Shown here piece by piece: positions 3,401 through 60,130 of a stretch of DNA of 64,000 bases (within the stretch, counting starts at the first letter, position 1; every line of letters begins with the position of its first letter). Made by a program: the position numbers and the translations under genes. The notes beneath the pieces are model-generated. The model had not been told where the DNA came from. It worked only from the letters and a program-made list of their open reading frames with translations, and made no database searches. Source of the DNA: Antedon bifida (lineage: Eukaryota; Echinodermata; Crinoidea; Comatulida; Antedonidae); assembly GCA_963402885.1 (NCBI GenBank), contig OY727096.1:27137820-27201819 (forward strand), in the 5' to 3' direction.

Positions 3401-6400
3401 ATAGACACTCCAGGGAGGCACACCATATGCATACTGAGGTTGTACCACGGTCGGTTGACCTAATCACAAAATATGATATCAAAATAATCATATCTTGTCA
3501 TTACTTGTTACACCATTATGATGTACAGGAGCAGAATAAGACTTTTGGTTGACTGATATCGTGAAATCTCTTCACTCCAAAATTAACAATTTATTGCAGA
3601 TATAATGATTTCAGTGTGTATATTTATCATTTGTCAATGAAATAATATAGATTGCATTTTTTTCAACGAAACGTTTTACACATTGTTTCTGCTATTATTG
3701 CATTGGTTATATATAAATAATGTCTCTAGTCTAAATAACTTTTTAAAGAATAGAATACTACCTGCCCATACCTAGGAATTAATATTATGTTTTTATAATT
3801 TTAAGTATTGGTAGAAAATAATTGTTTTTTCAATAAAATCTTCCTTATTGGATTACCAAAACATCATATTATGTATAAATGTGACCTACATATAAAGTGC
3901 AGAATCTGTTGTACAGTATATTTACATGAGAATGGCTTTCTAAGTGAGTATGATACCATATATGGCATGCACATGCTATATTTTAGAGACCAGAGGATAT
4001 CTTTCCAAAATATCATTCCAAAATATATCATTTTAAACATGGTAACAAAATCTAAAGAAATCATGTAAAAGTTTATGACGGGAAAATGTGAAGTGAATAT
4101 CTCAGTAAAGTTGCAAATAAAAAGTAAATTAATCAAATGTGGTGATATTGAACAAAAATTGAACATGTGAACAATTATTGTTCTTCAGAATACCAAATAC
4201 CAAATTAAAATATCCCAATTTTGTGCTACAACTCATGCATTTGCCTGTTTAAATTGTGTAATTGTTTTAATTGCAATCTTTACTGGGATAATCGAAAAAC
4301 AAAATCAAAAATTGAATCTACCTGCAATCGTTGCTGTGAGGCCTAATGCATAAGGATCTTGGGCAGTGGGTGCCGCACCGGTAATTATATACGGGTTGGT
4401 AGGAGCAAATGCAGTGGGAGCTAGGCCTATGAAAATAACAACAAGCAATAGAGATGTATTTAATAATAAAACAAGCTAAATGGCAAACAGATAAAATAAT
4501 TAAAAAAATGCTTCAAATTAAACAGCTTCTCCAGATTATATAGAATGACAACCATCTGTGAATTTAACATTCTTATACATTCAGTAAATAAATATAGCCA
4601 ATTTTCTGTACTGTATCTTTAAAAAGTACCATAGGCAACTTCTGCAATACAGCGTCACATATGCATAACATATGATGCCTGTACTATAGGCCATAAGCCT
4701 AAACGTAAACAATACATGCATCACACTGTATTACAGAATGTGCATATGATACGGAACAGTCAATGGCAAGATACAATACAGAGAATTGGATGATAAATAC
4801 ACATAAATAGCCCAGAAAAATTGTCTTGAATGCAGATCCAGTGGTAAAATGTATCAGACAAAAACCTTTTTTATTAGGAATAATGATATCCAATTTAGTG
4901 TGAACGGGTGCTTATTCATGGTTCTCCCTTTTACGTTGGCATGGTATGCCATAACATACTGACAGTACTGACACTAAATATCTTCTCTAGATATGCATTC
5001 AAGACTGTATTGACACACGTATCATAAAATATTGCATACACCGCTACGAACCCCCAGTTTTTTTATTTGCTAACAACCCAGTTTTCATTTGCGGCTTTCA
5101 CATAGAATAGAATAACTGTAGAATGTAGCATGCATGCATAACCTATGAGGTAACATCAGACCAAATCAAAATAATACATATTGTAGAAAAAGTACAGTTT
5201 GGCAATGTTATTTTAAGTCAATGATTTTGCTTAAGTAGTTTAAAAAAAAACCGTTTACGTATTTCTTTTCTTAAATCTTTTAAATTTGAAATTTATTCCA
5301 TATGATAAAAACATCTGATTAAATAAAGACTTTTTTTCAAATAAAAATGTGCACGATCTTGACTGAAGCAAAAAGATTGATAATCGGAAGATTTAAGTAC
5401 ACTCACTTTGATAATCTACATCCAGTCAAAGATAAATTTAGTCTTACCCATTTGTTGTTGCTGCTGAGCTGCGGCCAATGCATACTGTTGCTGCTGTTGG
5501 GACGTCAGTTGTTGTATAGCTATAGCTTGCGGGGTAGCTTGACGTTGCTGCATCATCTGCGGTGAACAAAATGTTTAATGCAACATACGGTAACAATTTT
5601 TGTTAAGATTCAATATAAGAAATAATAGGAGGAGATACTATTTTTTATTGATGTAATGAAGCCTCTAACTTATCTTATAATTATCATATCTTTTTAAAAA
5701 CACTGACAGTATCACAGGGTTAGAAATTAACCACTAAACCTCAGGAGCCAGCAGGGCTACCAACAAATAAATGTTGGTCACCTTTATCAAAATCTAGTGG
5801 CCCCCAATTTTTTTTTTCAATACTGTTTTTCTGCATTTGCAGCAGCAGCCGCCAATGGGACAATCTGACCAACGAACACCCACCAACCAAAATATAATGG
5901 ACAGTATAATCCTACCTAACTTCTCCAAATTGAATACCTAGGCCCTATGGGACTATATGCTGTAAAATGTAATTATAAATTCTAGAAAAAAAAACCAAAA
6001 ACCCTGCTACTGTATTCTCCAGTTATTACCTGCTGGGTGTGGTTATACTCCAAGTAGCTGGGACTGTCCATGCTGGGCACCATTTGACCGCCATAATCAA
6101 ACTGCAAGGGGTCAACAGAAACATGCTGTTGGGTATCAATCTGCAGGGGGTTTTGCTGGGCCTGTTCCATGTAGTTCTCTTGTGTGGTCTTCTGGTGTTG
6201 TAAGACATGTCGGTGAAGGTCCATCGGCTGTTGTACTTGTACCTTGCCTACCTCCTCCACTGGAACTTGATTCACGCCAGGTAGAATGGTTCTATATGGC
6301 AAACGATAAAACACGTTATTATGCAAAGCATCTTCTAAAGCTATGTCTACACTATCAAACTTGATGTGACAAAAAAATGTGATGTGCCCATATATGGACA

Positions 6401-9400
6401 TGATGACATATCACCATTAAATTTGAGCACATCACACTATTTTTTTGTCAAACTAGTTTGAAAGTGTAGACAGAGCCTAATATAATATTTTACACTAAAA
6501 ACAAATCTGGTGGCTTCCTCTTGAATTTACCTTAGGACTTCAGAACTGAGTTAATTTGTCCTGTCAACGCAACTGAACACTCCTGCCAAAACTTACATAA
6601 CCAAACCCTAGCAAATCAGAAGAGACACTCACCCCCGATACCCATTTTGCCCCTCTGTTTTACCTTCCATTTCAGTCCACCATAAACTTTCAGATCTGTG
6701 CATGATGTTTTCATTCGAAAAGACATAATTTTGAAAAAAAAGACCTTTTCAACACAGCTTGGAAGCAATAGTGGTTTAAATGGGTAGGTGTCGGCAAATT
6801 CAAGGGATCGATCTTTTTCACTCTCACTTTTCTACATACAATTTTAAAATATAACATATAACTCACTCTTGTTGCGGTTGAGTGGTCGTTTGAGGGACTT
6901 CATTCTGGTTGTCAACCTGGTTCAGTTCTTTGCTTTCATCAAAGGGAGAAGGAGTTTTACTGCCCTTTGCATTAGCTTGGTCATTGGTCTCATTTTGGGT
7001 TGGTTCCTGGGTCTGATTGGCAACTGGCTGTGTAATTAAATAAAACAACAGATTTTAGGTTAATAATGTGGTTTACAAAATATTAATTAATATTCATTTT
7101 ATTCTAAATTTATTTCTTCGGAAAAAAATATGAATTTCAGCAGACCCTCAAATGGCAATGCAAACTAAATAACAAAATAATTTTAATTTAGAAAAAAAAA
7201 TATTTTAAATTCAAACAAGGAATAAATGTATTAGTAATGAATATATAAACAAGCTATTTAAATTGTTAACATGTATGTTTCTTTTTTTTGTAAACCAAAT
7301 CGCCAACCAATTCAGGTTTTATTGTGATTTGTGGATATTTTGAATAAATAAAATATAGTTGTAGGTACCTGATGGTAGGGACATTTGATACATGTACAAG
7401 AGGCACATTTAAGAGAGCCCCTGAAATGTGAAATTTAAGAGGGCCCCTGAAGAATAACAACTATTTTGTCCAGCTGGAAGGTTTATCCTCTATGAATTAA
7501 AAAATATACCCTTTACTACCTTGACATTTTAAATTGCAAGATCAACATTTTATTAATTATACAGTACAGGTGTTCATTTATTTAATCTATTAGCACAGCC
7601 TGTATTTAGTGCAAAATATTTCTATGATTCATTACTTAATCTATTTAATTTTAAAACAAGTAGCGTAGGACTCTTTCATGGAGGCGTAGGACTCTTTCAT
7701 GGATACATAGTACCACACCTATTCCATTTTGTCTTTTAATAACATTAATTCAAGACAAAACATTTCTATAAAAAAAAAATCATTGTTGCAAGCTAGATTA
7801 AAAAAGCCAACAATAAAAACAATTGAATAGTACAATCAGAATTTACATATTCTGAACAATGGATTTCATTGGTTCTTTTGTTTGCAACAATTAATCCAAT
7901 GACATGTGAAAGATAAAGGTCAATGAATAAAACTTAAGCACCATACAACCTACAGTACAGTTATATATAGTTACTGTTATTCAAAGACATTGACTATGTA
8001 TTATTAGGTTAAAGATACAAGGTTGAAACTCTTTATGTATAATAAAGAAACAAATCACAAACAAGTGAATTAGCCTATTTTATATATACATCCACACCCA
8101 ATAAGTTTCAAGCTTTACTTTATGCAATACTTGCATATTTTTTTAATGAGGTTGAGGAACATATATGGACACATCACATTCTTTTTGTCACATAAAAATT
8201 GATAGTGTAGACAGAGCTTTACATATCAAATCAGTTATCATTATCACTTGCAATAATTTGTTAGGGTAGGTCCAATTTATAATCAACAGAATGTAATCAC
8301 CATTTACACCATTAAAAACAGTCATTCGCCTGGGAAATCAGACAGATTAGAGAGCCCAAGGAGAGTTTGGGAGAGCCTAGGACAATTTGGGAAAGCACAA
8401 GTGTACTTTGAGAGAGTTGATTTGTACTTACGAATCTCGCTCCTCCCGCCTTCATTCTGCCAAGTTTATTGGCATCCATATCCTTGCCCATGGTGGCCGG
8501 TGAACTGCCAAGTACGTACTCAGCCATGCTAACTCCGAGGCCACTCGTTTCAGATCGAGGCGACAACACAGCATTCTCTTGGCCCTGATAAGACCCTGGA
8601 GACAATCCTCTTCTTTGTACCATAATCGGTTGCGATACAGAATGATCTGAAGATTCAGAAGTAAAATATGTTAAGCTCTGTCTACACTGTGTGTGATGTG
8701 CCCATGGACAATTATTGAAACAAATGAATTTTCCTCAAAATGCATTGAGAACCAATTCTGCGCTTTGGTTCCAATTAGATTAGACAGAATATATTACTTA
8801 TTTTAATGTTTGAAGTAATTTTCAATATAACAAGAAAGTAAACAGACCCGTTGGAAGAACGAAAAAAATATGGACAAAGATGGTACAGGACGATTTGAAA
8901 ACTGTATTAAATTACACAGGCCAAGGAACGACAAGGAAGCATATTGATGTTTATCTAAAAGTATAAATCATAAACTCCATATATTTATTTATATTTACTA
9001 TACATACCAGTGCCACTTTGTTGAGGCATTGAAACACCTCCCCAACTACTAGCTGGCCACTGGTTGCCACCTAAGAACAGGCTGCCATCAGCTTTCTGCT
9101 CATCTCCTTGATCCCAGAACTTCTTTGCACCAAACTGAATGGAAAACCAAAAGAATTGTAATAATCTACAATCACAGGTATTTCAAATTCAATGTATTAA
9201 TTTGAACATGAGCTATAAACAACTAATTCACAAGTGTCTCTGAACCTCTTGCACTGACGAGAAATGGTGTTGGTAGTCCATGAGTGCGATAAACCAATTA
9301 GCCCTTTCCCCCACCAAGTGGATGACAAATACGAAAAGAAGAATGTTTAGTGAAACATCCCTAACTGCCCATGAGGCAGTCCACTACATTTACACAGAGC

Positions 9401-10538
9401 ATTCCAACGTACCACCATCATAATTTCTTTTTGTATCATTATTGTTTATGTACGAATACAACAAACTATTTGAATAATGTTAGTTTATCTATTTTTTTGT
9501 GTTCATTTTTAAACCTCTAATTTACTGATTGAAAGACCTAACCATTGACTTACAACAGTTCTTACCTCTTCATTAATTCTTAATCTCCGATCACCTTCCA
9601 AGTGCAATGCGTTGAACTGGTTTGTCATCCGAGCAATTTCAGCCGCCCTGGTCTGTAAAATATACAAGGAAAACTTGTATTAGAAATTAACCAAATTACA
9701 ATAATTGCAAAGAATAATTTTGCCACAGTGTAGCATAGCAAAAAGCTATACAAAAACTACTATCATATATTTACAAAATGGTATGCAAAACATTCAATAC
9801 AAAACTGTTTAGACTCAAAGTTCAATTTGATTTCCCTGTATTGAAAGTTTTGAATTACATAGAAAACATATTAAAACAAATAGCTGTGAAACACTGTATG
9901 TGTGTAATTTTTGACTGGCTGTACCTTTTTTTTTAAATTATTCCAAGTACATGTCAATCATTTTAGTAATTAAATATAGTAGGCCATAAAATATAATTTC
10001 ATAATACTGAATAATGATTGTTATTAGCCTTATTGGTTGTACTAGGCCTAAATACAGTATACTGCTGTTCAAAATTCGGATTAGGCCATTTGGCCCAACA
10101 TATTATTCAATTCCTTTTAATGTTTGAATTATGATCCAAAAACAGGCACTTTTGAAACAAGAGTTAAATACCAAAATCTAAAATAAAACCTACTGTAGGC
10201 CTACCTTCTTTATAATATTAATAATTAAGGCAACGCAATACCCCAGCTACTGAGTGAGCTAGTAATAAGTAGAGAGGCTAGGTAGGCCTACACATAAATT
10301 AAACTGTACTTGCCTGTTCAATGATGCTATCATCTCTATCTGCATTAGCCCATCGTTGTTTTTCATACTGTCCAGGGTCAACTGCTTCACCAGGCTGGCG
10401 TTGATGAAAGTAAGCGATAGTGGCATCGTCTCTAGACCCCTGTTGGAGGGCTGGATGCTGTGATCGGGGGCCTTTCTGTACACCACCAGGGCCTCCTTGC
10501 TGTCCAATACGAGAATCGTCCCAAGCTACCTCAGTCAT
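313..10538 (-). CDS. pum: Pumilio-family RNA-binding translational repressor, 3' end beyond the window
   Basis: Sequence-specific cytoplasmic mRNA repressor that binds UGUANAUA-type sites in 3' UTRs and recruits deadenylation factors (family knowledge). Exons joined by hand, 5' to 3': 10538-10314, 9652-9566, 9134-9008, 8646-8432, 7027-6867, 6291-6030, 5556-5448, 4426-4322, 3459-3151, 2729-2658, 2218-1811, 1649-1162, 845-555, 407-313. These total 2,954 nt, or 984 codons plus 2 nt, and every junction keeps frame. The N-terminal half holds conserved Pumilio blocks ([35 protein letters not shown]) and Gln-rich tracts. The PUF domain starts near residue 734. PUF repeats 1-6 are complete and repeat 7 starts at the last visible exon. 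About 95-100 residues (rest of repeat 7, repeat 8 and tail) are expected left of position 1. The domain reads closer to vertebrate PUM2 than PUM1 ([14 protein letters not shown]). The ATG at 10538 opens the first coding exon. Confidence 0.96.
555..845 (-). CDS. pum: pum exon 13, PUF repeats 4-6
   Basis: Ninety-seven codons in phase 0. The recognition residues are N-H-Q (NGNHVVQ), C-R-Q (YGCRVIQ) and N-Y-Q (YGNYVIQ), the classic codes of repeats 4, 5 and 6. The acceptor CTTCAG and the donor CAG|GTAAAG are both clear. Confidence 0.95.
943..995. mobile_element. Fragment of the CTCTGTCTACACT MITE family in pum intron 12
   Basis: Right-hand end only: GTCAAACTAGTT, then GATAGTGTAGACAGAGCTT. It matches the ends of the fuller copies at 6336, 32714 and 48152. 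Confidence 0.75.
1162..1649 (-). CDS. pum: pum exon 12, PUF repeats 1-3
   Basis: Begins with PGAEAKY, which precedes the PUF domain in vertebrate Pumilio proteins, then a Ser-rich linker, then [12 protein letters not shown] and repeats 1-3. The base-contacting positions read S-R-Q (HGSRFIQ), N-Y-Q (FGNYVIQ) and C-R-Q (YGCRVIQ). These are the standard codes for A, U and A at the 3' end of the target, so specificity looks unchanged. It ends in phase 0 at a CAG|GTACAG donor. Confidence 0.95.
3151..3459 (-). CDS. pum: pum exon 9, Gln/Ala-rich low-complexity segment
   Basis: Residues about 431-533. It opens with a tyrosine/proline-rich stretch ([13 protein letters not shown]) that aligns with YYGVTPWGVYP of vertebrate Pumilio. 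It then runs into glutamine blocks and an alternating Gln-Ala tract near the 3' end of the exon. Such tracts in Pumilio proteins contribute to repression and assembly in other animals (family knowledge). The minus-strand CAG/CAA mix suggests slippage-prone growth held in frame. Confidence 0.9.
4630..4755. repeat. Dispersed palindromic repeat (GATACAGTGTCACAT family)
   Basis: Contains CAATACAGCGTCACATATG, ATATGATGCCTGTACTATAG and inverted partners. Related stretches occur near 52,040-52,200 and 59,325-59,430. The family is unnamed and its ends are not defined. Confidence 0.4.
6336..6480. mobile_element. Full-length CTCTGTCTACACT-family MITE, 145 bp
   Basis: Both inverted ends are present (AAGCTATGTCTACACTATC on the left, GTGTAGACAGAGCC on the right). 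Between them are the inner inverted pieces ATGTGATGTGCCCATATATG and GAGCACATCACA. It sits about 45 bp upstream of the acceptor of pum exon 6, inside the stretch where the branch point and polypyrimidine tract are expected. Confidence 0.85.
8161..8222. mobile_element. Right-end fragment of the CTCTGTCTACACT MITE family
   Basis: ATATATGGACACATCACATT, then TTTTTGTCAC and GATAGTGTAGACAGAGCTTT. Lies in pum intron 4. Confidence 0.75.
8671..8710. mobile_element. Left-end fragment of the CTCTGTCTACACT MITE family
   Basis: TTAAGCTCTGTCTACACTGT followed by GTGATGTGCCCATGGACA. It begins about 25 bp from the acceptor of pum exon 4. Confidence 0.65.
10314..10538 (-). CDS. pum: pum coding exon 1, followed by a GC-AG intron
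   Basis: Seventy-five codons from the first ATG, containing the conserved RDDA..YFHQRQ.GE block seen near the N terminus of vertebrate PUM1. The exon must end at CAG (10316-10314), because the next exon (9652) starts in phase 0 with TRAAEIARM. The donor is therefore GCAAGT rather than GT, the usual form of a GC-AG intron. A GT four bases further on would shift the frame. Confidence 0.88.
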
Positions 10539-10554
10539 GATTTTTTTACAAACT

Positions 10555-11012
10555 AACTTTACAACTATTTACAAATATCATTCCACGATCTAAAAACAAA
10601 TTAAATATATATTTAAAACAATATTTACTGGTTACATAACATGGAATTATATTGCATTCTGACTACCTTATATTTTACTGAACTGAGCACAAATAATACT
10701 ACGAATACTACTGTGTGGCGAGTGGGTAAACAATGAAAATCACGGAGTGTGATCTATCGTTCCACCAAATTAGTCATTAAAAACACACCTATCAAAAATT
10801 AAATTTCATGTAAATTTACTTCATAAATCGCATAAAACTATTATTCACTTTAATTTGTTACAATAATTCAAAAAACATTTTAACTTACGGGGATGAAACT
10901 GGATTATTTACAACAGTTTATCTTCCTTCTAACTCAAACATCCCGACATTTTGAAAATGATGGATTCTGGGATATATAGCATGCATGTGCGTTTATAAAG
11001 GATGACGTCATT
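10555..11012 (-). promoter_or_regulatory. pum: Proposed pum 5' UTR, UTR intron and core promoter
   Basis: On the minus strand a palindromic CRE (TGACGTCA, 11003-11010) lies directly upstream of a TATA-like TTTATAAA (10992-10999), so transcription would start near 10,965. A strong donor, CC|GTAAGTT, has its GT at 10888-10887. A matching acceptor TTTGTTTTTAG ends at 10590, which implies a UTR intron of about 300 bp (10590-10888). Exon 2 of the transcript (from 10589) then runs into the ATG at 10538. The motifs are seen; their use is inference. Confidence 0.45.
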
Positions 11013-11556
11013 TCTAACCATGAGCTGAGCTGAGTCAGAAAGTTCTTTTGTTCTCACACAGAGAGCTACTTATCATTGTTAGCAATCGCTTTCATAGAAT
11101 TATTTAGATAATGAACTGAAATGAGTTATTGTTTTTAAATTAAAGACTTCGCTGGTTCATTTTTGCCTATACTACTAGCTAGCTACGCCCTTTGCAGACG
11201 CGTCTACCATGCACGCCTCTATACTATAGGCCTACTCAGGGGGTAAAAAAAGACTTAAAAATCATGGAAAATCTTTGCATGTCATCCACCCGTATCTCTA
11301 TCGCATATTTTTTTTACTACATTGCAAAAAAGTGTACTGTATTCTCCTTGTATAAGTTCTATTGTAGGACTATTTCACAAACCACCATCTAATAAAACTA
11401 AAGCCATAATTCCAGTGGTAATGGCCAGATCAATACAGGATCCAAGATCTTTTGTATTAAATACAGAATACTTTTAGCAATTGCTGGATGCCGGGATCAC
11501 CCTCATTAAATATGGTTCAAATAAAAATAAATAAAGATATCGCCGTTGCTAAAGCC
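11013..11556. other. Intergenic space between the divergent pum and SWIM genes
   Basis: No exon is recognised. It holds a TAGGCCTA octamer (11227) and the SINE tail listed separately. The two gene starts are about 1 kb apart and head to head, so shared regulatory sequence is possible. Confidence 0.5.
11476..11512 (+). mobile_element. 3' end of a SINE
   Basis: AGCAATTGCTGGATGCCGGG, then ATCACCCTCATTAAA. This matches the tail of the more complete SINE at 49,759-49,925. Confidence 0.6.
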
Positions 11557-11834
11557 GTTTAGATATATTGTCCCCTACATTTTTTTTTAATGTCACGTAA
11601 TAGTAATTAGTTATTCAGTTTTACCGAAAACTGATTCGAAAAAAAATGATTTATCTGAAAAAAATGTAATTTAAAGCAAAACAATATTTTAAATTGTCTG
11701 TCTAAAATTAACCGTTTAGTTTGTCTTTTTTTTTACAGAAGTGAATAACTTTATTTAAACTGCAAAATGACCCATTTAAAGTCCGATTTTATTAATCTTC
11801 ATTTTCATGTTTTTGGGGGACACTACGTCTTTAA
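11557..11834. mobile_element. TTAA-flanked MITE, degenerate copy upstream of the SWIM gene
   Basis: Left end AGATATATTGTCCCC and right end GGGGGACACTACGTCT, the latter followed by TTAA. It shares the internal segment ATGTCACGTAATAGT with the copy at 17,933. Lies about 145 bp upstream of the proposed first coding exon of the SWIM gene. Confidence 0.75.
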
Positions 11835-11977
11835 TTCGGGCCACAAACGGGTGAACTGCCGCTGACGGCGGGGACATCATCAGTAAAGTAGTGTTACATC
11901 AATTATAGAGGGCGCTAAATCTTTTCATCCGCGGCGGGCGCTTGAAGTGTTGTTGCGTATACAGACTTATTGCAAAA

Positions 11978-14900
11978 ATGATAGAGATTTGTCAATTTCA
12001 TAACCCAAATAGTGATATTCAGCTACTTCAGGTAAACAATTAACTATTATTATAGCGTCATATTCATTTGGAGTGACGGTAGACGTTGTTTATCGTCTTC
12101 CTGCAAAGAACAACCTAAACGAAGGACTGCCTAAAAATAGGCAGGCTGCATCAATATTTTTCTTTTCCGACGTGTTAGGACAGAACTACAGAGGGCGCTA
12201 AATTGTTTCTTTTCTCAAAAAAGGCCTCCAAAAGTTTTCACTTTAAACTGTAAACTAAATGGTTAAATTCAATCAAACCAAAATTGTCTGTCAGATGGGT
12301 CAATTTTACTATTTTTTTGCTTTAAATTACAATGTTTTCTGGTAAATAATATATTTTTTTGATCCAATTATTATGTGACATTAAAATTGCATTCAACTTG
12401 AAAAAAAATTTCATTTTTTTTTTCAGGGAGACAGTTAGATATTAATATTCTTATATAATTGAATCCATGTACCTGTTTAATTTTACAGAACATTCTTCCA
12501 TCGGAATACTCGCATACCATTTGTGAATTTGAAGAGGTGCCGGAGCTAAATGGAAAGTTCAAATCTGTTTTAAGATTGAATTTAACAACGGAAGTAGAAG
12601 CAAACATGTGGTTGCAAGCATTTCAAGATACTTCTAAAGATACATATAGAATATCCCGTAAACGTATACCAAAGAAAAGTACAAAGGTTGTTTACACATT
12701 GGACCTAAGATGTCAACATAATACCTTACCAAGGACATCCACTGCTGACCAGAGAGCTGGATCAAAAAACACCAAATGTCCAGCAACTGTGGCCATAACA
12801 GTTAAGAAAATTATATCAAATAGGAAAAGCAGGTACAGTAATAAAAGAAAGATAATTTTTCATACAGAGAGCAAATATATGGTTGTAAAGTATCTTTTTT
12901 TATCTCTGACTTATGATGAACTCTGTTGTTGTCTTGTCTTTCTATGTTGTTTTATTTTATTTCTAAACTAGGCCTACACATTAAATGTATTACATTATTC
13001 ACTACACTTTTAAATAATCACACAATATAGGTGCAGTGAAGAATGATATAAAATTAAATTTAAGAGTATTATCAATTTTACCAACAATTTCAATTTGCTA
13101 TTAATTCAAAATCATCATCTGTTCCTATTATTGCTATATATACATAATTTTATTCCAATTCAATTTCAAATAATAGAAAAAACAATATTGTCTTAATTAA
13201 AACATGTTTTTTTTAAAGGTCGAGTGACATTCATTCAAACAGCATGCCAATGATTGTGCGACTAAATTATACACATAACCATCTTGTAAACTGTGCTGAT
13301 GTTTTAAAGCACAGAGATGTTTCGCCATTTGTTATTGAGAAATTTAAAGTTTTGTACGAATCAGGACATTCACCTTCGACGGCAATGATAGCTCATAAGT
13401 TTGACATGCAAGAAGAGCATGGTGATGACTATGTGCTTGTTTCTGGTGACCGATCTCAATCTCCAGACACTCAGTGGTGCTATAGGTAAGTCATTTAGGC
13501 CCTGCTTTTGCTGAGGTGCAAAAACCTGAAACATTGTATTGTCCCCCAAATAAAAACATGAAAAATGAAGATTAATCAAATCAGACTTTGAATAGGTTAT
13601 TTTGTAGTTTTAATATTTTAACAACTTCCATAGAAATAAAACGACAAAAAAAGTATTGTTTTCACTTATAAAATCACCAAATAAATGGTTAAATTCAACC
13701 AAAAACTCATTGGCTGGCAGCCAATTTGACTATTTTTTGCTTTAAATTACTGTTTTTTCAGGTAGATAGCATTTTTTTAAATCAAATTTTTGGTCAAAGT
13801 GGATACCTATTATGTGACATTAAAATGGCATATTAAATAAAAAATAAATAGATTATTTTTTCAGGAGGACAATGCCTCTTTAATGTATGAACAAATGCCA
13901 TTTTCTTGCCAGCAAAAATAACTTAAAAATTCAAATAATTGTTTCATCCTAGAGAAAATAACATTTGCTTGCACTGTAGACAGAAGTAACCATAATATTG
14001 TAATGCATAGTATTAGCCCAAAATTGTTATGTTACTCAAGCACACAATCAATTGGAAAACTAGGTCGGTCAGTCAGATTTTTTTTTTATTTTAGGATTAA
14101 AATGAATGATTTTTTGCTTTGATCGTAGGATTAATTAATATATGATGTTGATGAAAGACATGGAGTTTTTAACTGTTATATTTTTTATAGGTTTTACAAC
14201 AAAACATTCCAACATCATTATGTAAAGCCAAACCGTGAATCAATGTTGGTTGATTTGAAGAGGAATATAAACGTTTACAATGCAGAGGAGGTTATTTGTA
14301 CAATGGAGGAAGAACTGAGCGGAGGAAATATATGTGTAGCATTGTGCACCCCTTTAATGAAACGAGTACATCGCTGTTATCAACCAAGTGGTGAATTGGT
14401 TTTTCTTGATTCTTTAGGAGGTTTGAATCACTATGGGTGTCGAGTGTATGTGATGTTAGCGCATAGTAGCGCAGGTGGTGTACCTCTTGGAGTTCTTGTG
14501 ACAACATCTGAAGCTGAAGATGTATTAACTGCCGGCTTGCAGCTACTGACGTCTGTATTTCCACAAGATGCTTTTTTTGGAAAAAGTGAAAATGGACCAG
14601 ACGTATTTATGAGTGATGATTCGGAAGCCGAAAAAAATGCATTGCAAAATGTTTTTCCTGATTCTCACCAGTTACTTTCCGTCTTCCACATTTTGCAAGA
14701 AATGTGGAGATCTCTTTTGGATGAAAAGCATAAAATATCCAAAGAGGATCGTCCACACCTTCAGAAATTACTGAAGGATATGCTGTATGCTAAATCATAT
14801 GAAGAACTCGAACAAAACTACAGCAATATTTTAACTGATATAATTGCTTGTAAGTATCCTTGCTATGGGTTGCATATCAAACATATTTTTTTGCGCAAAC

Positions 14901-49757: not shown

Positions 49758-49758
49758 G

Positions 49759-49925: not shown

Positions 49926-50115
49926 GCACAACGCCACGTGTAACATCGCTTTTACATTGAGCAGTATTTGCAAAAAAAAATCCGAACTTTGATTTAAAAG
50001 TTGTAAACGTTATCGTGCGAAAAAAACAACTTGTAAACAACAAGACATAGGCCTACCTGCAGCATTATTTGCAAGTAAAAATAATAATCAGATTAAATAC
50101 ATACGAAATTATTAG

Positions 50116-50463: not shown

Positions 50464-50640
50464 TATTTATACCATTAGCGTGATATGTACCGCACAGTGA
50501 ACCATTAATATGTAAATGAAACAAGTTCGTTAATGAGAATCAGAAAAAAAAATCCTATATTATCGATGTTTAGTATTAAAATATTTTATTTCAATATAAC
50601 TCATGTGTTACCTTACGATACCTTTGCAACTTATGTTTTT

Positions 50641-50737
50641 AGTCGCGTGCAACGTGACTCTACAGCTCACTATGTCGGTCGGATAGTTGGTCGGTCGGTC
50701 GGTCGGTAAACACTAACTCAAATTTGAGCACGCGACT
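50641..50737. mobile_element. AGTCGCGTG-ended element, 97 bp
   Basis: Starts AGTCGCGTGCAACGTGACTC and ends GAGCACGCGACT, with five GGTC/GGTCG units in the middle and the same TCACTATGTCGGTCGG lead as the copy at 32,834. Confidence 0.8.
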
Positions 50738-50784
50738 GCAGCCATGTATATGGCCTTGTTTAATAGTATACCAGGCACATTCCA

Positions 50785-50885
50785 AAATACAGCGGGACAT
50801 AATGACGTGCGTTATTGGTTAGTAGATAGACAGCCTATTATCCAATGTATCTCGGAAAATTCGTAAATACAGCGTCACATGTAGG
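50785..50885. repeat. Stranded unit of the 49.2-kb satellite array
   Basis: ATACAGCG, GTTATTGGTTAG, GACAGCCTATTATCC, AATGTATCTCGG and AAATACAGCGTCACAT match the array units. About 1 kb of inserted elements separates it from them. Confidence 0.8.
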
Positions 50886-50977
50886 CCTAACATAATTAGT
50901 GTAGCCTATTCGTGTAGACAGCATGCCTTATTGGACAATAAACACATTTATATAATGATGTGATTATTATGATGGTT

Positions 50978-51104
50978 TTTTTTCACAATATGTGCCCATA
51001 TGGAAACCATGATGTCATATCACTACCATATTTTGGCATATATCACTACCATATTTGGGCACATTTTTTCAAACTTTGAAGAACTTTGTAGAAAGAGCTT
51101 TAAA
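50978..51104. mobile_element. CTCTGTCTACACT-family MITE, reversed and decayed
   Basis: ATGTGCCCATATGGAAACC, ATGATGTCATATCACTACCA (with a second CACTACCATATTTGGGCACA), then GTAGAAAGAGCTTTAAA at the degenerate right end. Confidence 0.7.
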
Positions 51105-51451
51105 TAACAACATCAGTTGAAAAGGTACGTGTGTAAATGAATTGAGAAGTGTGTAAATGAGATTGACTGTTGTGTCACCATGACTTTCCTTCCTAAATAA
51201 TGAGCTTATGAAATGACGATTAGATGTGCCAAATGGCACACATCAACATCATAATAGTTAGAGAGAAACTGTTAACAAGTACTTGACGACTTAATTATCA
51301 TCCCATCCATTCGAATATAAAAATAACACTTTTTAAATTCATGCAAAATGAATATTATTAGCTAAACTTTGTGTTATAGTGAACTATTGATAGCTGAAGT
51401 GCGTATAGTAGATTTTACTAAAACAAATTAACGGTTTATCGCAAATTGCAT

Positions 51452-51556
51452 GCGCGACGCATGATGGGAGGGTTTGGGAGCAAACGTCACGACGCGCACG
51501 TACGTGATTTGTTGTTTGTACGTACGCGTGGTTTTCCTCCCATCATGCATTGTGCA
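51452..51556. repeat. Inverted repeat around a CpG- and ACGT-rich core
   Basis: GACGCATGATGGGAGG and CCTCCCATCATGCATTG lie about 80 bp apart in inverse orientation. The core between them holds GACGCGCACGTACGTG and TACGTACGCGTGG. Confidence 0.6.
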
Positions 51557-52441
51557 ATGACGTTCCTCGCGAAATCAATTATTTGATCTTATGGGTCAGA
51601 AAATGTATTTGAAAAAAATTTTACATAACATTAATATTATTTGGACAATAGACATAAACAGGTTAACATTTCTAATCTGTAAATTCAAAATACTGATAAC
51701 TTAAGCAGGTAATATTACACTCATTTAGCATTTCAATGTTTGTTCATGTCCTCTCCGCCGTCGTGTTGCGTTTGCCTCTAGGCCCAGGTTGGTTGAATAT
51801 GTCACGTAATAGCATATGTTTTGATTTATCATGATCTAGCTTTGTAATATAACAGCTCTCTATAGATCTGGAATATTGACATTGAAACTCAATGTGCAAC
51901 AATATCTTTACTGAAACCGATGACACTATTGATTCAAACCGATCGATGATTTCCCCAGATAACAGTAAAAAACAGATATTAATTTCTTATCCTATATATG
52001 TTGAACTATATTTTCAAATTCTATAGCCGATTCTCACTCCTGTTTATATAATTTGTACAGTATCATAGACAAATTCAATGATACATTGTCACATACGTAT
52101 CACACGTCAGTATAATGACATATAGCGTATTACCTAACCCTAACCTAAACATAATACAGGCATCAAATGTTATGTGACACCGTATTTTACAGAACTTGTC
52201 TCTGGTACAGGACATAAAACGCCGGACATTGTATTCATACAACATAGAGAATCTGATGCATTTACATTGTTTTCTCATTCTCACAGATGTCCTCATCTTT
52301 ATCGTTTCTAAATTAATTAATCAATTAATATTCAGTATATCACCGGGCGTTTAATAATTTGTAGTCTGTGCTTAATAATTTATATCGTCGACGCTGAGTG
52401 TGTTCAAGAGTCGCTATCTAATCGAATTTGAACAAATAAAA

Positions 52442-52516
52442 GCTCAAGTTGTCTAATAGTTAGGACGTCTCCATACCAAGTAGAAGGTTCCAGGTTCGAA
52501 TCTTGGTTGTAACGGC
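52442..52516 (+). repeat. tRNA-like sequence (pseudogene or SINE head)
   Basis: TTGTCTAATAGTTAGGACGT followed by a T-arm CCAGG-TTCGAAT-CTTGG that pairs with one G-T pair. The acceptor stem does not pair convincingly, so it is not called as a functional tRNA. Confidence 0.4.
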
Positions 52517-53061
52517 TTTATATTATTTCTCCAATATTTCCTCATATTTATCGTTCCAAATTAATTAATTGGTGTAGGCGTATGTATTAGTCTGGGTTCC
52601 AGACGGAGTTTTGACATTAATATTAGTAAAAAGATAAATATTTTGGCACATATGACGTTTCATACGTATACTATTTGAGTTTGTATTTCAGGCCCGATTT
52701 CAGGTTCAGACAAACATCGAAAAGCTTCGAAATAACTACAGACTTGGGGCAAGTCTAGCCTATGTATTAATGAAAGGGAGTAATTTAACTAAATCATCGT
52801 TTTGGATGAAAAACCAAAAACTAGCTGACCATCTTTATCGCAAACATTCTTATTATTTTAAATACATCATACATCATTGATGGTGATTGTACGTTACGGA
52901 TACAGATACAGATTCAAAGATTGAGTAGTCTAGGTATTGTAGGCCTATCAATCAATCTATTAAATAAATGTGATCAACCCATTGTGCTATTAAATTGGTT
53001 ATACAGATGGAGATGATCTCCCTCGATAATAAGCTTCATGCTTTTTACATTATTTCATGTT

Positions 53062-53352
53062 CATTATCAAAATTATCATTACGGTATTATCAAAATTATC
53101 ATTACAGTGTTATCAAAATTATCATTACGGTATTATCAAAATTATCATTACGGTATTATCAAAATTATCATTACGGTATTATCAAAATTATCATTACGGT
53201 GTAATCAAAATTATCATTACGCTATTATCAAAATTATCATCGCGGTATTATCAAAATTATCATCGCGGTATTATCCATATTATCATTACGGTATTATCAA
53301 AATTATCATTACGGTATTATCAGAATAATCAATTACGGTTTTATCAAAATAT
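53062..53352. repeat. 23-bp minisatellite, about 12 units
   Basis: The unit ATTATCAAAATTATCATTACGGT repeats with few changes. Because 23 is not a multiple of three, all three plus frames stay open and encode related KIIITVLSKLSLRYYQNYHYG-like strings. These are artefacts, not genes. Confidence 0.92.
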
Positions 53353-54229
53353 TATCAATGTTCTTCATTTTAGAAGTTTTTTTTATCTTTTGTGGTTCAT
53401 CACATTCATTCAATGTTTTATTACATAAACATTTTCTACCTTTTTTCATTATTTTCTGTTTTTCCCTCATTGATATCATAATTTTAAGCTTTAGTTATCA
53501 TACCATTGGTAAAAATTACCATTCATTTAGTATTTTTGTTTTCTGAATTACTAAAATTTTATACAAAGTATTTATCTTAACATTCTTTTTTTTTTAAATC
53601 CTCTATTTACAATAAACAATTATATATTAATTAAAATACTTAACTTCATACATCATTTTGAAAGTTAATATTATCCGCATTGCTCTCATCAACTTTTGGC
53701 TGAGTCGCCAAAGGTTACGACCAAATACGAAAAACTCACATAAATCATCGGATGGATTTAAAAAGTAACATTAAACAACTCTTCTTGTAATAAATATTGA
53801 TACAAAATCGCCATTTCATTTTTACTGCATGGCTTCATATGTCATAGAAAGCCATTGGCGCATTGAGTCACCTTGCTCAACATGTATTTGCAGTTTTCGA
53901 AGGGCTATTAGTAACAATTACCGAATATGTTATATTTTTAGTAGAATTACCAAATCGTTATGTCGTAATACCTCATAATTACGACGTACGTAGTTCGTAA
54001 ATTTAGCATCTTAGTGGTTACTCTTAATGGTTTTACGTGTTTGATCAGTAAATACGAACGCCGCAATGATAACATAACACCAATTCAAAATCTTAAATGT
54101 TTTAAAAAAATTAAGTACTGTAGATTTTAATTAAGATGTGTCTTATTTTTGACTTATTTTCTTGTAATTACAACTTAAGCGTAATTATTAACGGTTATTA
54201 ATTGATATGACTTAACTTTCCTAATGACG

Positions 54230-54560
54230 GCATACAGAGCGTAATTACGGTAATGGCGACATGAAAAGCGGTAATTATACCTTATCTTACCGTTAATTAC
54301 GCCGCTTATCTTGTCCAAATGAAACAAAACAAACAAAGCCTAAAATTACGACTTATCTTGCCGTAACCACGACGTACAAAACGTAATTACGACTTACTTT
54401 GCCGTAATTCCGTCGGCATATAAAACTTAACTACGACTTATCTTGCCGTATTGCCTTCGACATACAACGTAATTACGACTTATTTTGTCGTAACCCCAAC
54501 TTACGAAGCGTAATTACGACGTATCTTATCGGAATGACACAGAGCCTATATACGTATATG
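54230..54560. repeat. Degenerate tandem array of CGTAATTACGACTTATCTTGC words
   Basis: CGTAATTACG, CGACTTATCTTGCCGTAA and related words recur about every 60 bp. Weaker forms extend back to about 53,960. Confidence 0.7.
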
Positions 54561-54953
54561 ATTTATCTTACCTTAACGACAACACACAATGCGGAAAATA
54601 TGATGCTTTATACCGCAATTCGTCATCACTATTACGAATGGTACAATTATCAGAGTGTGTATGCCTATCATCTGACCAATAATAGTAATTACTATTTTGT
54701 ATCATAATTATGTTGTATATTATCCTGTATATATAATCATGAAGGTCTAAATTGATTTATTTTATACCTCAAAGATATAACTGGGTTTGTGGTGACCGGA
54801 TGTTCTTATTTATTCTTTTACAATATCTTATTGATTGATTATCTCTTTCATTAATGAATCGTCTTTCGCGAATGAAGAAAAAAAAATAAGGAAAACTCAT
54901 TTTGAATGAGGCGTGACGCGTCGTGAAAGATCGCGGTATCCATTGTGGTCGCG

Positions 54954-55223
54954 TTAAGGCCAATTTACACAGACAAGCGGTAACGGTAAGCGGAAAACCG
55001 CGTAGCTTGTCCCACGTAGAATCTGTATCTACCCTGAGCGGAAACCGCCCGTCCGCTCCACGTTGTGTGTACATAGTCATAAGGAATATGGTTGTTAGTC
55101 TAGTGTGACCGTGTATTCAAATGAGGCAAAATGTGACCGAGGAAGAATAACTAACCCGAATAACATACTGTAGATTCTATATGTTTATTGCCGTTACCGC
55201 TCGTCTGTGTAAATTGGCCTTAA
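54954..55223. mobile_element. Full-length 270-bp MITE with TTAAGGCCAATTTACACAGA ends
   Basis: Left TTAAGGCCAATTTACACAGA then CAAGCGGTAACGG; right CCGTTACCGCTCGTCTGTGT then AAATTGGCCTTAA. The ends are nearly perfect inverses of about 33 bp, with terminal TTAA. A shorter copy is at 27,682. Confidence 0.88.
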
Positions 55224-55949
55224 GTCACTGACAAGAATGATAAAACTCAGTTTATACAAATTGTTGCGCAGTGCATGTTTTGAATTATTTGTATTTATAC
55301 ATGATTTGATTTAAATTGCTGACCAAATGACCACATTCAGAACGGCGTTAATTTCAAGAGACTATAGGGAGCATTTATCCAGTATCGGCTCATCTGATCT
55401 ACCATTAGGTCATTCGTCCAATACATCAATAGTTATGGATTATTATTGATAGATATTCAAATCCGTTATAAAACGTAGTACAAGTGTTACGTTTACGCCT
55501 CAAGGCACCTCAACTATTATACAGATATTGCCTGCTTAGACGTAAGAGAATAATATTTTTCTCAAGCGACAAACACAGAAAAAATGTACGTGGAGGTCTA
55601 TCAGCCGTTATAATATAATACCTAATCGGTTTACGAACCATTACTGTTTTAGTATACTGCCGACAAGTAAATACAATAAAGGCCACAATTCAGTTAATTA
55701 ATTACTGATTCGCCGAAAAGCAACAATACATATTTTAATATGATACGCATAATACTACTTACTAATTCAGTTTTGCAAATTGTATATACAAGGGCAGGAA
55801 TAATAATAGATTAAGATTTGTACTTTTATTATCATTGATGATGAGATTGTAAAGCAATCAATGTTCATGATTATATTAAATTAATGTTGGTTTGATTAGT
55901 GTCCAGAAGTGAATAAGCACATATTACAAAATTAATTATTGCCTCGCGT
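55224..55949. other. No gene seen
   Basis: AT-rich, with no open frame of note. Confidence 0.4.
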
Positions 55950-56405
55950 GTAGACAGTAAAATTGCATTCAGGCTTATGTTTATCATTTTAAAGTAGGCC
56001 TATAGAGACTGTATTTTGAAATGGTATGGTACGCCGGCATGCTATGCCGAGTAGGTTTTCTTGTCACTCAACAGCATAGAAAAAAAGGACATTATTTAGA
56101 CAGTAAAATTGCATTCAAGCTTATGTTTATCATTTTAAAGTATAGAGACTGTATATTGGAATGGTATGGTACGCCGGCATGCTATGGTACGCCGGCATGC
56201 TATGCCGAGTAGGTTTTCTTGTCACTCAACAGTATAGAAAAAAAGTACATTATTTAGACAGTAAAATTGCATTCAGGCTTATTTTTATCATTTAAAAGTA
56301 TAGAGACTGTATATTGAAATGGTATGGTACGCCGGCATGCTATGGTACGCCGGCATGCTATGCCGAGTAGGTTTTCATGTCACTCAACAGTATAGAAAAA
56401 AAGGA
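55950..56405. repeat. Three-unit tandem repeat of about 147-159 bp
   Basis: Each unit runs TAGACAGTAAAATTGCATTC, AGAGACTGTAT, GGTATGGTACGCCGGCATGC, GCCGAGTAGGTTTTC and GTCACTCAACAG. Units 2 and 3 carry an extra internal duplication of the palindromic TACGCCGGCATGCTATGG segment. Confidence 0.88.
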
Positions 56406-56976
56406 CATTGCTTACGTTAATAAAAGTAAATTATATTCATAGTGTATTCTTTATATGCACACAATACAAATAAAGTAATACGGTATATTGGAATTTAAAT
56501 TAGATATAAAAATTACTGTGCCAGAATAATACAAATAAGCCTCTTATGGGCATTAGTCTTGATACCAGAATTGAAAAAAAAAACACAATAGCTTTTGCAT
56601 CATAAAACAGAGTGGTAAACATGGATGAAACACGACGAAACAAAGACTAGAATGAGGACAAGGACAACGGCAATGTAATAAAGTACAGATCGTATCAAGA
56701 TAGAATAATAATAATATTATTATTATAGATGACAAATTTCGTTTTTGTAAAAGCTACCAATTAACGGAGTATTTACTCGGACGTTTCGATCTCTACAGGG
56801 ATCATTCTCAACTGACTGCGGAGTGTTAACGAAATTTGTCATCTATACAAAATCGAAGCTAAATGAAATTTTTCCAATATTATTATTACTACCACATATA
56901 AATATAGCACACTTTTCATGAATATGTTCAAATGCGCTTTACATAGTTCCGCTGTATTCTCGTCCATTCGCTATTA

Positions 56977-57304
56977 AGCGCGGTTCCCACTAGAACGCAA
57001 CACAACGTAACGCAGCGACGTATCGACGCAAAGTGCTGTAAAGCTTGGTTCCCACTAGAACATAACGCAAAGACGTAAACGTAACGCAAGCGTTTTAACC
57101 AATGACAAGCGAAGTTATAGACAGTTAGCAATCACAAGCGAATAAGCCATCGCTTGTGATTGGTCAATTCACTTGCGTTGCGTTACGTCCTTGTGTTGCG
57201 TCGCTAGTGGGAACCACGCTAAAATATCGCAGGTTTGATTTCATTCAGGCGGGGGCAAACACAATTATTGGAAGGGCATTTTCTTCGCTAGTGGGAACCA
57301 AGCT
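56977..57304. mobile_element. Harbinger-like GGTTCCCACTAG MITE, long form, with a short form nested in it
   Basis: The outer element AGCGCGGTTCCCACTAG...GTGGGAACCAAGCT is flanked by TTA on both sides (56974-56976 and 57305-57307). An inner 179-bp palindromic form (57042-57220) interrupts it. Outside the insert the outer sequence follows the long form at 61,060. Confidence 0.82.
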
Positions 57305-58427
57305 TTAGTTGTGATAGCCCTGAATTTCAGAGTAGTGTATAGGTATATAGGTTGCTTTCACAACGCCCTAAATTTGGTTAACTGCTCTAAACCATTGAAG
57401 AAATTATGGTTGATCTGCATGCATGCATGTATGTCTGTAATGTTATTTTTTTATTGATGTTTTATGGATGTACACGTACTACGCGTGCCTGCCATCGGGA
57501 CACCTGCTGTAGACCTATTACAGCAATAGCCCAGAACTTCCAAAAACTAACTACACTTATAGATAAGCCTAAGGTACACATACGGATTTCTATCAAGACT
57601 TGAAATACAATGAAAAACACAAGTTGTTCTTGATGAAGCTGATTCTCGGTGCTGTCATCATAATATGCAAATGATGTACAGGGTAACATGTAGGCACATC
57701 ACATGCGACGACGATTCAATTCAATTTATTCCGGATTTTACATGAACAATACTAACAACAAAACACACATACAATACACATGCTAGACCCGGGGGACTCC
57801 AACAGCGAACTGGACTGATATCTATGTGGAGAATCGAGTAGCCTACTTGATCGTCTGCGTCAAAAGGGTTCGAGTTGTCATGATCACTATTTACCGTGTT
57901 GGCGCACCATACACGTTTAATATATAATACTAGTTTATCTCCTCTCCATTAAATTATCATATTTGTAATTATGTTTCGTAAAAAGCAATATCATCACAAA
58001 GCTTTAAAAATATATTATTATCATATTCTTTAACATTGAATGTCATAGAAGCTACCTCAAGGTGAAGAATCTATTCAAAATGGGGAAAATATATAATATG
58101 TCAAACGCATCAGTGTTATAATGAAAAAGGATGACGCGACAGTCGGACCATTGGTTTCCGGGGCTAACGGCATTCAGATGCAGAATCATGCTACACTTTT
58201 GTCTCCCTTTCTCCCTTAAGTTTCGCCTTGTCACATCTCAATCTATTATTACCCGTATGATTGCCAACAAGAAAATAGTTCATGACTAAGTTCATGACTG
58301 AAGTAGTGAACACGTGACTGAATTCATAGCATGCTCTGGGCAAATGGCGATTGCTGATGGGATATTATTAGTTTAGGATACATGAACAAGCACTAACTAA
58401 CTGTGTATTCTATCTTGTCTCATGTAA

Positions 58428-58632
58428 TGCGCTAACCAAATACGTATTTCTTTTCACAAAACTATTTCTGTTGAACATAGTATTATGCTCACTGATCCAA
58501 AACTCTGGAATAACGTACCAGTTCCCATCAAAAGTGCCTTATCAAAGAAGGGTTTTTCTTTTAAATTGAAACGACACCTCTTTGATGGTTTATGTCCGTC
58601 GTTGCCTTTTGTGTTACGTACTGTATTATGAA
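58428..58632 (+). pseudogene. LINE reverse-transcriptase C-terminal remnant
   Basis: An open stretch ending in a stop at 58,630 reads DPKLWNNVPVPIKSAL then FSFKLKRHLFDGL. This is the LWN-P-IK-FK-LKRHL pattern that ends many non-LTR retrotransposon polymerases. No catalytic domain is present, so it is a 5'-truncated dead copy. Confidence 0.6.
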
Positions 58633-58699
58633 AGTTATTAATAGCAACATTTTAAAAAAGTTATGTGTAATCATCCTTCATATTCAGAGATATCAATTT

Positions 58700-58806
58700 A
58701 TGCACGCGCGCCGTTTTATCATCATTTGAATGGCGCGCGCGTCGTTTTATCATCATTTGAATGGCGCGCGCGTCGTTTTATCATCATTTGAATGGCGCGC
58801 GCGTAA
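58700..58806. repeat. 31-bp minisatellite with GCGCGCGCG cores, about 3.5 units
   Basis: Units of TTTTATCATCATTTGAATGG followed by CGCGCGCGTCG. This is the second array in the window that pairs a GC-alternating core with an AT-rich spacer. Confidence 0.88.
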
Positions 58807-59324
58807 GTTGACGAGGTATGACTACAGTACGATATGCGAGTTGTATGCTATGATACAACGAAGATGTTCATTCGTACATTTTATTTAGTGGGTAATCTGG
58901 ATGCCTCGCATTGTTGAAATTTTAAATCAACGTCTTCAACCTAATTATGTTCCTCAAATTAATTAAACGTTCATCATTTGTGATGTATGCCCTGATCATT
59001 AAAATGACATTAACAATCTTTCAAAAATAAATTGATGTCAACCAACTTAAATTCTTCCATTTACGAATTTGATTGATATTTTATTATCGCTGTACCTTCT
59101 TCAAATGATATTCTGTTCCTTTGACTCTGTGGCGTCACATGTTGATGCGACTTTACGAATACTTCAATACGATATCTCATCACATTCGCCAAAGTTGGAT
59201 TTGCGAAGACTAAATACTATACATTTGTACGTTGTGTACTCTAATAGAAAAGGGCAATATGTGTGTGATATGTTATATAAACATCGTATTAAGACGAAAG
59301 TGTATAAATTTGCTCATCATAGCC

Positions 59325-59430
59325 GATTGTCAGTACTGTTCTATAATTTGCACAGTAACATTGTCAAATGCTGTGATACAGTGTCACATTTGTATTACAT
59401 ATGACGCCTGTATCATGCCATAAGCAGGAT
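59325..59430. repeat. GATACAGTGTCACAT-family dispersed repeat
   Basis: ATAGCCGATTGTCAGTACTG, TGCTGTGATACAGTGTCACA and ATATGACGCCTGTATCATG align with 52,025-52,170 and, less well, 4,640-4,700. Confidence 0.5.
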
Positions 59431-59739
59431 AAGTGACCTGACCTTAATCTTAAATTCAGTATGTTCTGATTTATTAAAGAAGAGAGTTTAGGCCTACATG
59501 TGATGCATACGTGATGTTACAAAATATGTCTATCTGGATATATATACAGTAGGCCTTTATCGTGAGATACACTATAAGAAAATATATTATTTACACTGTT
59601 TAACCTATAGTTAGGTCAATTGACAGTATAGCAGACAGAGAATCGCAGGCGTTGTTTAAATATTAATAAAATGCTTGAAACACTGGCAAGGTGATTAATT
59701 TTAATAATTCAATTCAGTTGCGGTATATAGGTATATAAA

Positions 59740-60065
59740 AACATACGAGTGTACTTTAAAAAAAAACTAATATTGTAGAGTACACCCGCTTCATGCTTCA
59801 TTGTACAGACAAAGTATCTCACGAATATAAGCTTTTTATTTATTCATTTTTTTTTTATCAAAAAAAGATTTCCAAAGACAAACAAACAAGCATCACAAGA
59901 CATTATTAATAATAGGTACATCAAAACATACGAGTGTACTTTAAAAAAAAAAATTTTTTTTAAATAATATTTCACCCGCTTAATAAATGATTCATTGTAC
60001 AGACGTGTCTCACGAATATAAGCTTTTTATTTATTCTTTCTCCAACAAACAAGCATCACAAGACA
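59740..60065. repeat. Direct duplication of about 180 bp
   Basis: ACATACGAGTGTACTTTAAA, then CACCCGCTT, TTCATTGTACAGAC, CTCACGAATATAAGCTTTTT and ACAAACAAGCATCACAAGAC occur at 59,742-59,901 and again at 59,928-60,065. Confidence 0.75.
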
Positions 60066-60130
60066 CTTTAGGCCTACTCTAATAATAAATGTTTCATAGT
60101 CACAATTTAAATTTTTTTTCCCGAATATTA

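Follow-up and report, generated by a model that had tools for sequence, protein, structure and literature searches.

A dispersed palindromic octamer in the crinoid Antedon bifida is a probable excision footprint of TA-target DNA transposons

How did a palindromic octamer, TAGGCCTA, come to lie dispersed through the DNA of the crinoid Antedon bifida? The question is raised by a stretch of 64,000 nucleotides (assembly GCA_963402885.1, contig OY727096.1, positions 27,137,820 to 27,201,819), here called the window, in which the word occurs 32 times exactly, compared with a mean of 0.40 and a maximum of 2 in 100 dinucleotide-preserving shuffles. We give a probability of about 0.8 to the reading of TAGGCCTA as an excision footprint, left by a cut-and-paste DNA transposon that has TA as its target and ends beginning with GGC or GGCC. 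An earlier reading of the window from its letters alone (the original prediction) had noticed the over-representation, which stands, and had put the count at about 34, which is slightly too high; the nine coordinates that it named are all correct, and the final copy lies at 60069.

The excess is a genome-wide phenomenon reaching beyond the window. Across 315.6 Mb on 27 contigs the count is not near expectation: TAGGCCTA occurs 109,821 times, about once per 2.9 kb, against 1,444 occurrences of the reversed control word, a 76-fold difference. The longer word GTAGGCCTAC occurs 11,313 times against 64 for its own reversed control; the extension that had been noted is thus real, but "many" was somewhat strong for 5 of the 32 copies in the window and 11,313 of the 109,821 in the genome. 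In a 182-kb sample, made up of the window and stretches from other places in the genome, the proposed comparison of 8-mers with a Markov model places TAGGCCTA first among over-represented palindromic 8-mers (99 against 1.3 expected, order-1 model), and under a stricter order-3 model it is found 139 times in 243 kb against 14.2, an expectation inflated by the motif itself. Pools used after the 182-kb sample omit stretch L002, which overlaps L001; the satellite stretch L016 was left out of the end searches in 219 kb, the spacer spectrum and the decay and outer-base analysis; the 253-kb pool is without L029 and L030; and cluster masking was applied only in the decay and outer-base analysis. A single repeat family bearing the word was rejected, in agreement with the original prediction, since flanks vary by site and 30 of the 32 window sites have none in common, the other two (40273 and 40407) belonging to one tandem repeat. 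A microsatellite (TAGGCC)n was likewise rejected, since masking leaves 66 of 133 copies isolated (the other 67 being in clusters) and only 8 double units occur in 243 kb.

The origin of the word is seen in paralogous sequences that differ in its presence. Every TAGGCCTA in a 229-kb pool was compared with paralogs inside the pool; alignments span 36 of the 133 sites, the majority in clusters or in tandem copies sharing the word, and at five non-cluster loci a paralog lacks it, yielding three length differences, one point difference and one ambiguous case. GTGTG-TAGGCCTA-AAG at L010:8970 is aligned with GTGTG-TA-AAG at L010:834, a gain of exactly 6 bp at a TA, and the copy at window position 55995 is aligned with a bare TA in the tandem units at 56141 and 56299, again an exact gain of 6 bp. 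At L019:1467-1480 a double insertion of 12 bp is present relative to one of two paralogs, the gap to the other being longer, and at L019:5133, in a cluster, 6 bp are inserted within an existing scar. When indels of 4-14 bp between paralogs were counted blind to sequence and filtered in the 253-kb pool, the AGGCCT rotation class was joint commonest among those of 6 bp (2 of 15). Insertions of 5 bp at a TA, with GGC or GCC, are also found between paralogs at L018:6504, at L018:6896 and in L016 (C10:15000001-15010000), a satellite whose units measure about 890 bp, in which seven aligned units carry TAGCCTA and four are without it as a 5-bp difference. TAGGCCTA is gained by exact insertion, TA becoming TA-GGCC-TA, and the duplication of the TA that characterizes an excision footprint is observed both among paralogs and in the repeat described below.

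An abundant miniature inverted-repeat transposable element (MITE) served as a test site, since the 21-base word GCTCTGTC-TA-CACTA-TCAAAC in its terminal repeat is present in 12,771 exact empty copies genome-wide. Copies of this MITE, whose termini are AAGCTCTGTCTACACTATCAAAC, lie at window positions 32714-32833, 48151-48293, 6334-6482 and others. When the motif was free to sit anywhere between both ends of the terminal word, genome-wide, all seven copies found were at a TA, five of them as an exact gain of 6 bp (27 against 21 bases); of the remaining two, one had an extra A (28 bases) and the other an altered left flank (29 bases). A second MITE segment gave three copies, two of which are exact 6-bp gains at TA. 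A scan that left the inserted letters unspecified (TA-N{1,20}-TA at the first TA of the terminal repeat) returned 90 TA-x-TA insertions, most often of 3 nt (38), followed by 4 nt (9), 2 nt (8), 1 nt (7) and 5 nt (6). The remnant between the TAs thus has the 2-4 nt of a footprint, peaking at 3 nt and with GGCC at 4 nt: GGCC, that is TAGGCCTA, makes up five of the nine 4-nt inserts. By direct count 27 of the 38 3-nt inserts are CAG or CTG, and among the 22 of 90 inserts listed, the 12 of 3 nt comprise five CAG, two CTG, three CAC, one TAG and one CGG. TAC[A/T]GTA at the MITE TA is a parallel insertion class, equal to the published Sleeping Beauty footprint.

Sister classes are evident in the whole genome as well. 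TAC[A/T]GTA occurs 276,231 times against 112,495 for its control, and TAGGCTA with its complement 80,055 times against 21,364. Among 32 strand-merged TA-N3-TA classes in 243 kb, order-3 Markov simulations place CAG first (218 against 72) and GCC second (88 against 35), and GGCC, with the 139 copies against 14.2 given above, is first of 134 TA-N4-TA classes. The excess over reversed-word controls amounts to about 108,000 for GGCC, 164,000 for CAG/CTG and 59,000 for GGC/GCC. The best reading of this spectrum is that of two footprint classes, one left by an element class with CAG ends and one by an element class with GGC(C) ends, and the approximately 80,000 copies of TAG[G/C]CTA fit a minor product of the GGC-ended element. 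The outer base at isolated TAGGCCTA sites is G in 43%, A in 28%, T in 20% and C in 9%, compared with 18% G at random TAs, so that GTAC is favoured as the context of isolated scars. At L004:1497-1514 a CAG/CTG double scar holds a GGCC scar in its central TA, TACAGTAGGCCTACTGTA.

The following mechanism may be proposed. An element would land on a TA, best in GTAC, and duplicate it; at its departure the transposase would cut the non-transferred strand some 3 nt within the element, so that a 3' overhang of GGC remained on each side, and the host would then join both ends. Were the GGC overhangs to pair one base out of register (GC with GC, without mismatch), the product would be TAGGCCTA; pairing in register (G-C, a G.G mismatch, C-G) would give TAGGCTA or TAGCCTA, and CAG ends, able to pair in register only, would give TACAGTA or TACTGTA only. 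Since the shifted pairing is free of mismatches, TAGGCCTA is predicted to be commoner than TAGGCTA or TAGCCTA if the pairing step is as supposed. An overhang of 4 nt, GGCC, would account equally well for the main product.

Published reports describe close counterparts. TACAGTA and TACTGTA are the consensus footprints of Sleeping Beauty (PMC4378557), and the transposases of Sleeping Beauty and of mariner elements place their nick 3 nt within the element, which gives 3-nt 3' overhangs identical to the footprints (PMC7827188). Footprints of Tc1/mariner elements are reported to measure 2-4 bp (PMC7913693, PMC9976928) and those of the fish Tc1/mariner element ZB 0-3 bp (PMC7913693); the fish pogo element Passer gives TA duplications, with reported footprints of 0-4 bp (PMC9976928). 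The likeness to the TAC(A/T)GTA of Sleeping Beauty and Tc1/mariner lies in the TA target and the 3-nt remnant between two TAs, and the TAC[A/T]GTA of Sleeping Beauty is itself enriched here and present at the MITE TA as a gain of 5 bp. The differences are that the class in question here is GGCC/GGC rather than CAG, with about 110,000 GGCC scars alone, and that Passer and ZB are assayed active elements whereas the GGC element is deduced from scars alone.

PIF/Harbinger elements target the 3-bp sequence TWA, and the ends of PIF/Harbinger and Tourist MITEs are GGCC-like, sharing these letters with the scars described here. A PIF/Harbinger footprint was nevertheless rejected, because the 3-bp TWA duplication is absent; only TA is duplicated, and the outer base is preferably G. 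An element of 268 bp at window 54955-55222, with perfect 20-bp inverted ends TAAGGCCAATTTACACAGAC and beginning with TAAGGCC, is Harbinger/Tourist-like by eye.

The features of the window are given below without strand; "scar" is a label taken from the reading as an excision footprint.

4422..4429, TAGGCCTA scar, exact match, taken as the putative pum splice-acceptor copy of the original prediction (minus strand)
10043..10050, TAGGCCTA scar, 2 bases ahead of TACAGTA (10053), exact match
10196..10203, GTAGGCCTAC-type scar, its first TA common to TACTGTA (10191-10197), making two adjoining scars
10283..10290, GTAGGCCTAC-type scar, exact match
11227..11234, TAGGCCTA scar, exact match
12969..12976, TAGGCCTA scar, exact match
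15835..15842, TAGGCCTA within the MULE-type transposase open frame (14135-15940, plus strand), in-frame G-R-P-I
16208..16215, TAGGCCTA scar, exact match
20556..20563, TAGGCCTA scar, exact match
20676..20683, TAGGCCTA scar, exact match
21226..21233, TAGGCCTA scar, exact match
29537..29544, TAGGCCTA scar, exact match
31197..31204, TAGGCCTA scar, exact match
31226..31233, TAGGCCTA scar, exact match
34782..34789, GTAGGCCTAC-type scar, exact match
36567..36574, GTAGGCCTAC-type scar, exact match
36616..36623, TAGGCCTA scar, exact match
40273..40280, TAGGCCTA, first unit of a tandem repeat of 130 bp, exact match
40407..40414, TAGGCCTA, unit 2 of the 130-bp tandem repeat (unit 1 at 40273), with an extra TAGG before it
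40561..40568, TAGGCCTA scar, exact match
41427..41434, TAGGCCTA scar, exact match
42580..42587, GTAGGCCTAC-type scar, alignment with the L015 paralog ambiguous, exact match
42698..42705, TAGGCCTA scar, exact match
44306..44313, TAGGCCTA scar, exact match
46347..46354, TAGGCCTA scar, exact match
47848..47855, TAGGCCTA scar, exact match
50048..50055, TAGGCCTA scar, exact match
50882..50889, TAGGCCTA scar, exact match
52940..52947, TAGGCCTA scar, exact match
55995..56002, TAGGCCTA scar in tandem-repeat unit 1, the other two units having TA only (exact gain of 6 bp)
56141..56142, unoccupied TA of tandem unit 2, the pre-insertion state of 55995, by alignment
56299..56300, unoccupied TA of tandem unit 3, the pre-insertion state of 55995, by alignment
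59489..59496, TAGGCCTA scar, exact match
60069..60076, TAGGCCTA scar, exact match
1114..59551, 37 dispersed copies of TAC[A/T]GTA (11.5 expected), second footprint class, some copies not being scars
8071..57845, 15 dispersed copies of TAG[G/C]CTA (5.0 expected), candidate 5-bp GGC scar

The 15 copies of TAG[G/C]CTA were reached by 1 of 100 shuffles. The open frame at 14135-15940 on the plus strand has 601 codons and matches the MULE transposase domain, and the word at 15835 may belong to the original coding sequence instead of being a scar.

Several observations weigh against the reading as an excision footprint. L006 shows a same-length difference of a single base (TAGGCCAA), with four tandem units carrying the word and one without it, which would most simply represent decay of the word, and the alignment of window 42580 with its paralog in L015 is ambiguous. 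One of the three copies in the second MITE segment can be explained by two substitutions, and same-length substitutions could be matched by neither MITE pattern, as these need at least 22 (terminal) and 24 (second segment) letters against 21 and 23 in the empty copies, so that insertion is demonstrated there without substitution being excluded. The five identical MITE copies could in part descend from a single event. Eleven of the 38 3-nt inserts at the MITE TA are neither CAG nor CTG (six of these are given without letters), and TAG[G/C]CTA had 0 matches at the tested MITE TA where some 2-3 were expected from the genome ratio, a mild discrepancy. The reversed-word controls for GGCC, including the 1,444 behind the 76-fold ratio, and for GGC contain CpG and may read low. 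Finally, among the matches listed for 219 kb (pairs of terminal inverted repeats, and clustering of TAGG, TAGC and TACAG words) there was no element with TAGGC...GCCTA ends, and no matching ends were seen at seven DDE_3 and DDE_1 loci of 3.3-3.5 kb, stretches that are perhaps too short.

The age of the scars bears on the alternatives. Beside the 66 exact copies of the masked sample there are 90 one-mismatch neighbours against 50 expected, an excess of 40; if all of this decay is by point mutation, mean scar divergence is about 7% per base, and the scars are neither brand-new nor conserved. A host DNA-binding protein, such as an insulator or architectural factor, could recognise TAGGCCTA at sites kept by selection, and a palindromic, dispersed word that stands 76-fold over its reversed form with a G...C flank preference would suit it. 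The excess of one-mismatch words is, however, the picture of neutral decay, the word arises as an exact 6-bp gain at TA even inside MITE repeats, and the CAG class follows the identical TA rule. We consider selected protein sites improbable, and the host protein site of the original prediction leaves the insertions, the TAC[A/T]GTA class and the point-mutated excess unexplained. Just as improbable is the filling of breaks at TA by untemplated or polymerase-theta-type nucleotides, G added to either 3' end giving GG/CC. Other spacers of G and C only do exist (GC 80 against 52, GGGCC 5 against 0.8), but the broad spread expected of such filling is replaced by a sharp spectrum in which GGCC stands at 139 against 3.4 while GG (53 against 62), CC (52 against 58) and GGG (7 against 12) show no excess, and a separate CAG class is present.

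Slightly less credible still is a context-dependent substitution or gene-conversion bias converting near-matches to TAGGCCTA. The MITE copy two substitutions from consensus and the one-base, same-length difference of L006 are of the kind that it predicts, and a share of substitutions may be present given that the MITE patterns are blind to same-length changes; three of the five informative loci outside clusters are nevertheless length changes, and exact 6-bp gains occur in two MITE segments. The suggestion of a mutational or methylation footprint likewise fails to account for the 6-bp insertions at TA among paralogs and in the MITE, for the parallel TAC[A/T]GTA class or for the surplus of point-mutated words. 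We rate on a par with substitution bias the idea that the inserted 6 bp are in themselves an entire micro-element, mobilized in trans by a transposase specific for TA and never part of anything larger, an idea that would suit the many scars and the lack of a larger GGC-ended element in the 219 kb, among the matches listed. An insert of 4 bp would however be too small for a transposase site, and the CAG class coincides with known excision footprints. Of the three ideas offered by the original prediction, its remnants of a tiny mobile palindrome come closest, since exact insertion at TA is borne out; the palindrome itself is most likely a repair scar and not the mover. Least credible of all is programmed DNA elimination, with TA/GGC-bounded germline elements cut from the soma and somatic scars in the assembly, for although the sampled assembly has scars without resident elements, point-mutated scars are in excess and tandem copies share scars (L006, L016), so that scars seem to be inherited as scars.

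If TAGGCCTA is an excision footprint, a donor element should exist or have existed. Scar words, tandem arrays and other repeats make up the 14 listed of 35 groups of extension-sharing TAGG words in the 219 kb and, together with the L016 satellite, the matches listed in the end searches as a whole. The single perfect 20-base TAGGC pair of the 219 kb, L018:3853-6319, was rejected because it lies within a longer, outward-continuing inverted repeat and marks no element end; in L018:2479-7692 several inverted repeats are nested within one another (of 179, 133 and 65 bases, with 99-100% identity), and two of their arms have TAGGCTA. In the stretches examined, neither a GGC-ended nor a CAG-ended element could be delimited; CAG agrees with the published footprint.

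TA-target DDE/D transposases are encoded in the genome, and we infer their link to the scars. DDE_3 profile matches number 15, of which 14 exceed the cut-off, and DDE_1/pogo matches 49, with 20 in open frames of at least 400 amino acids. A pogo-type transposase frame of 653 amino acids has an identical score at four places in the genome; in L028 (C12:2561001-2564500) its terminal residues are PHD-type zinc-finger-like by eye. Two of these four copies, on C12 and C23, were compared in two pieces (883 and 717 bases) and are identical throughout, which places the ends of the element farther out; contig C23 (14,113 bases) may be a stray duplicate. By established population-genetic reasoning, with one scar left per departure, scars subject to drift would build up as fast as excisions take place. 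A low transposase copy number is therefore compatible with many scars, the number of which would reflect long-running jumping and not resident copy number.

Each scar holds two TAs and could be hit again, giving rise to clouds, to which slippage may contribute. A dense cloud at L003:310-361 has eleven TAs and ten spacers of G and C only (GGCC, GG, GCC, GGCC, GGC, G, GGCC, GCCC, GCC, GG), and chains of at least three TA-G/C-spacer steps number 41 in 243 kb against about 2 per simulation, a few of the 41 being plain TAG or TAC repeats. One may tentatively extend this to the whole genome, although we regard the extension as more doubtful than the footprint itself: some 300,000 excision scars, about one per kb, would then stand against 64 TA-target transposase matches, the GGC-ended family would survive almost only as scars, and scars would breed scars into palindromic TAGGCC clouds, a new birth route of simple-sequence DNA.

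The HIP1 word of cyanobacteria is also a dispersed, highly over-represented palindromic octamer, but it is a different word, and the one described here originates by insertion at TA. Among the papers listed by searches of the open-access literature there was no report of TAGGCCTA as a genome-wide scar, and none was listed for its double unit. Excision footprints are a known class; their scale here, the GGCC form and the self-feeding clouds appear in none of the papers so listed. Such footprints have been described at individual loci and in assays; in this genome they seem to rank with its most over-represented words, and so to form a fossil record of transposon traffic that is independent of surviving copies. 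If this is true, an assembly by itself would suffice to count all departures of a transposon, to date them and to map their target preference; vanished elements could be deduced from the scars that they left, and scars would supply 5- and 6-bp indels and simple-sequence DNA.

The gene content includes PUF, kringle and laminin-G domains, and the earlier assignment of a pum gene is corroborated by Pumilio PUF repeats at window 1123-1656 on the minus strand (E 4e-35). A tandem array of the 22-bp unit GATTACACTACGCGGCATCATA, in 12.8 copies, occupies window 62512-62795.

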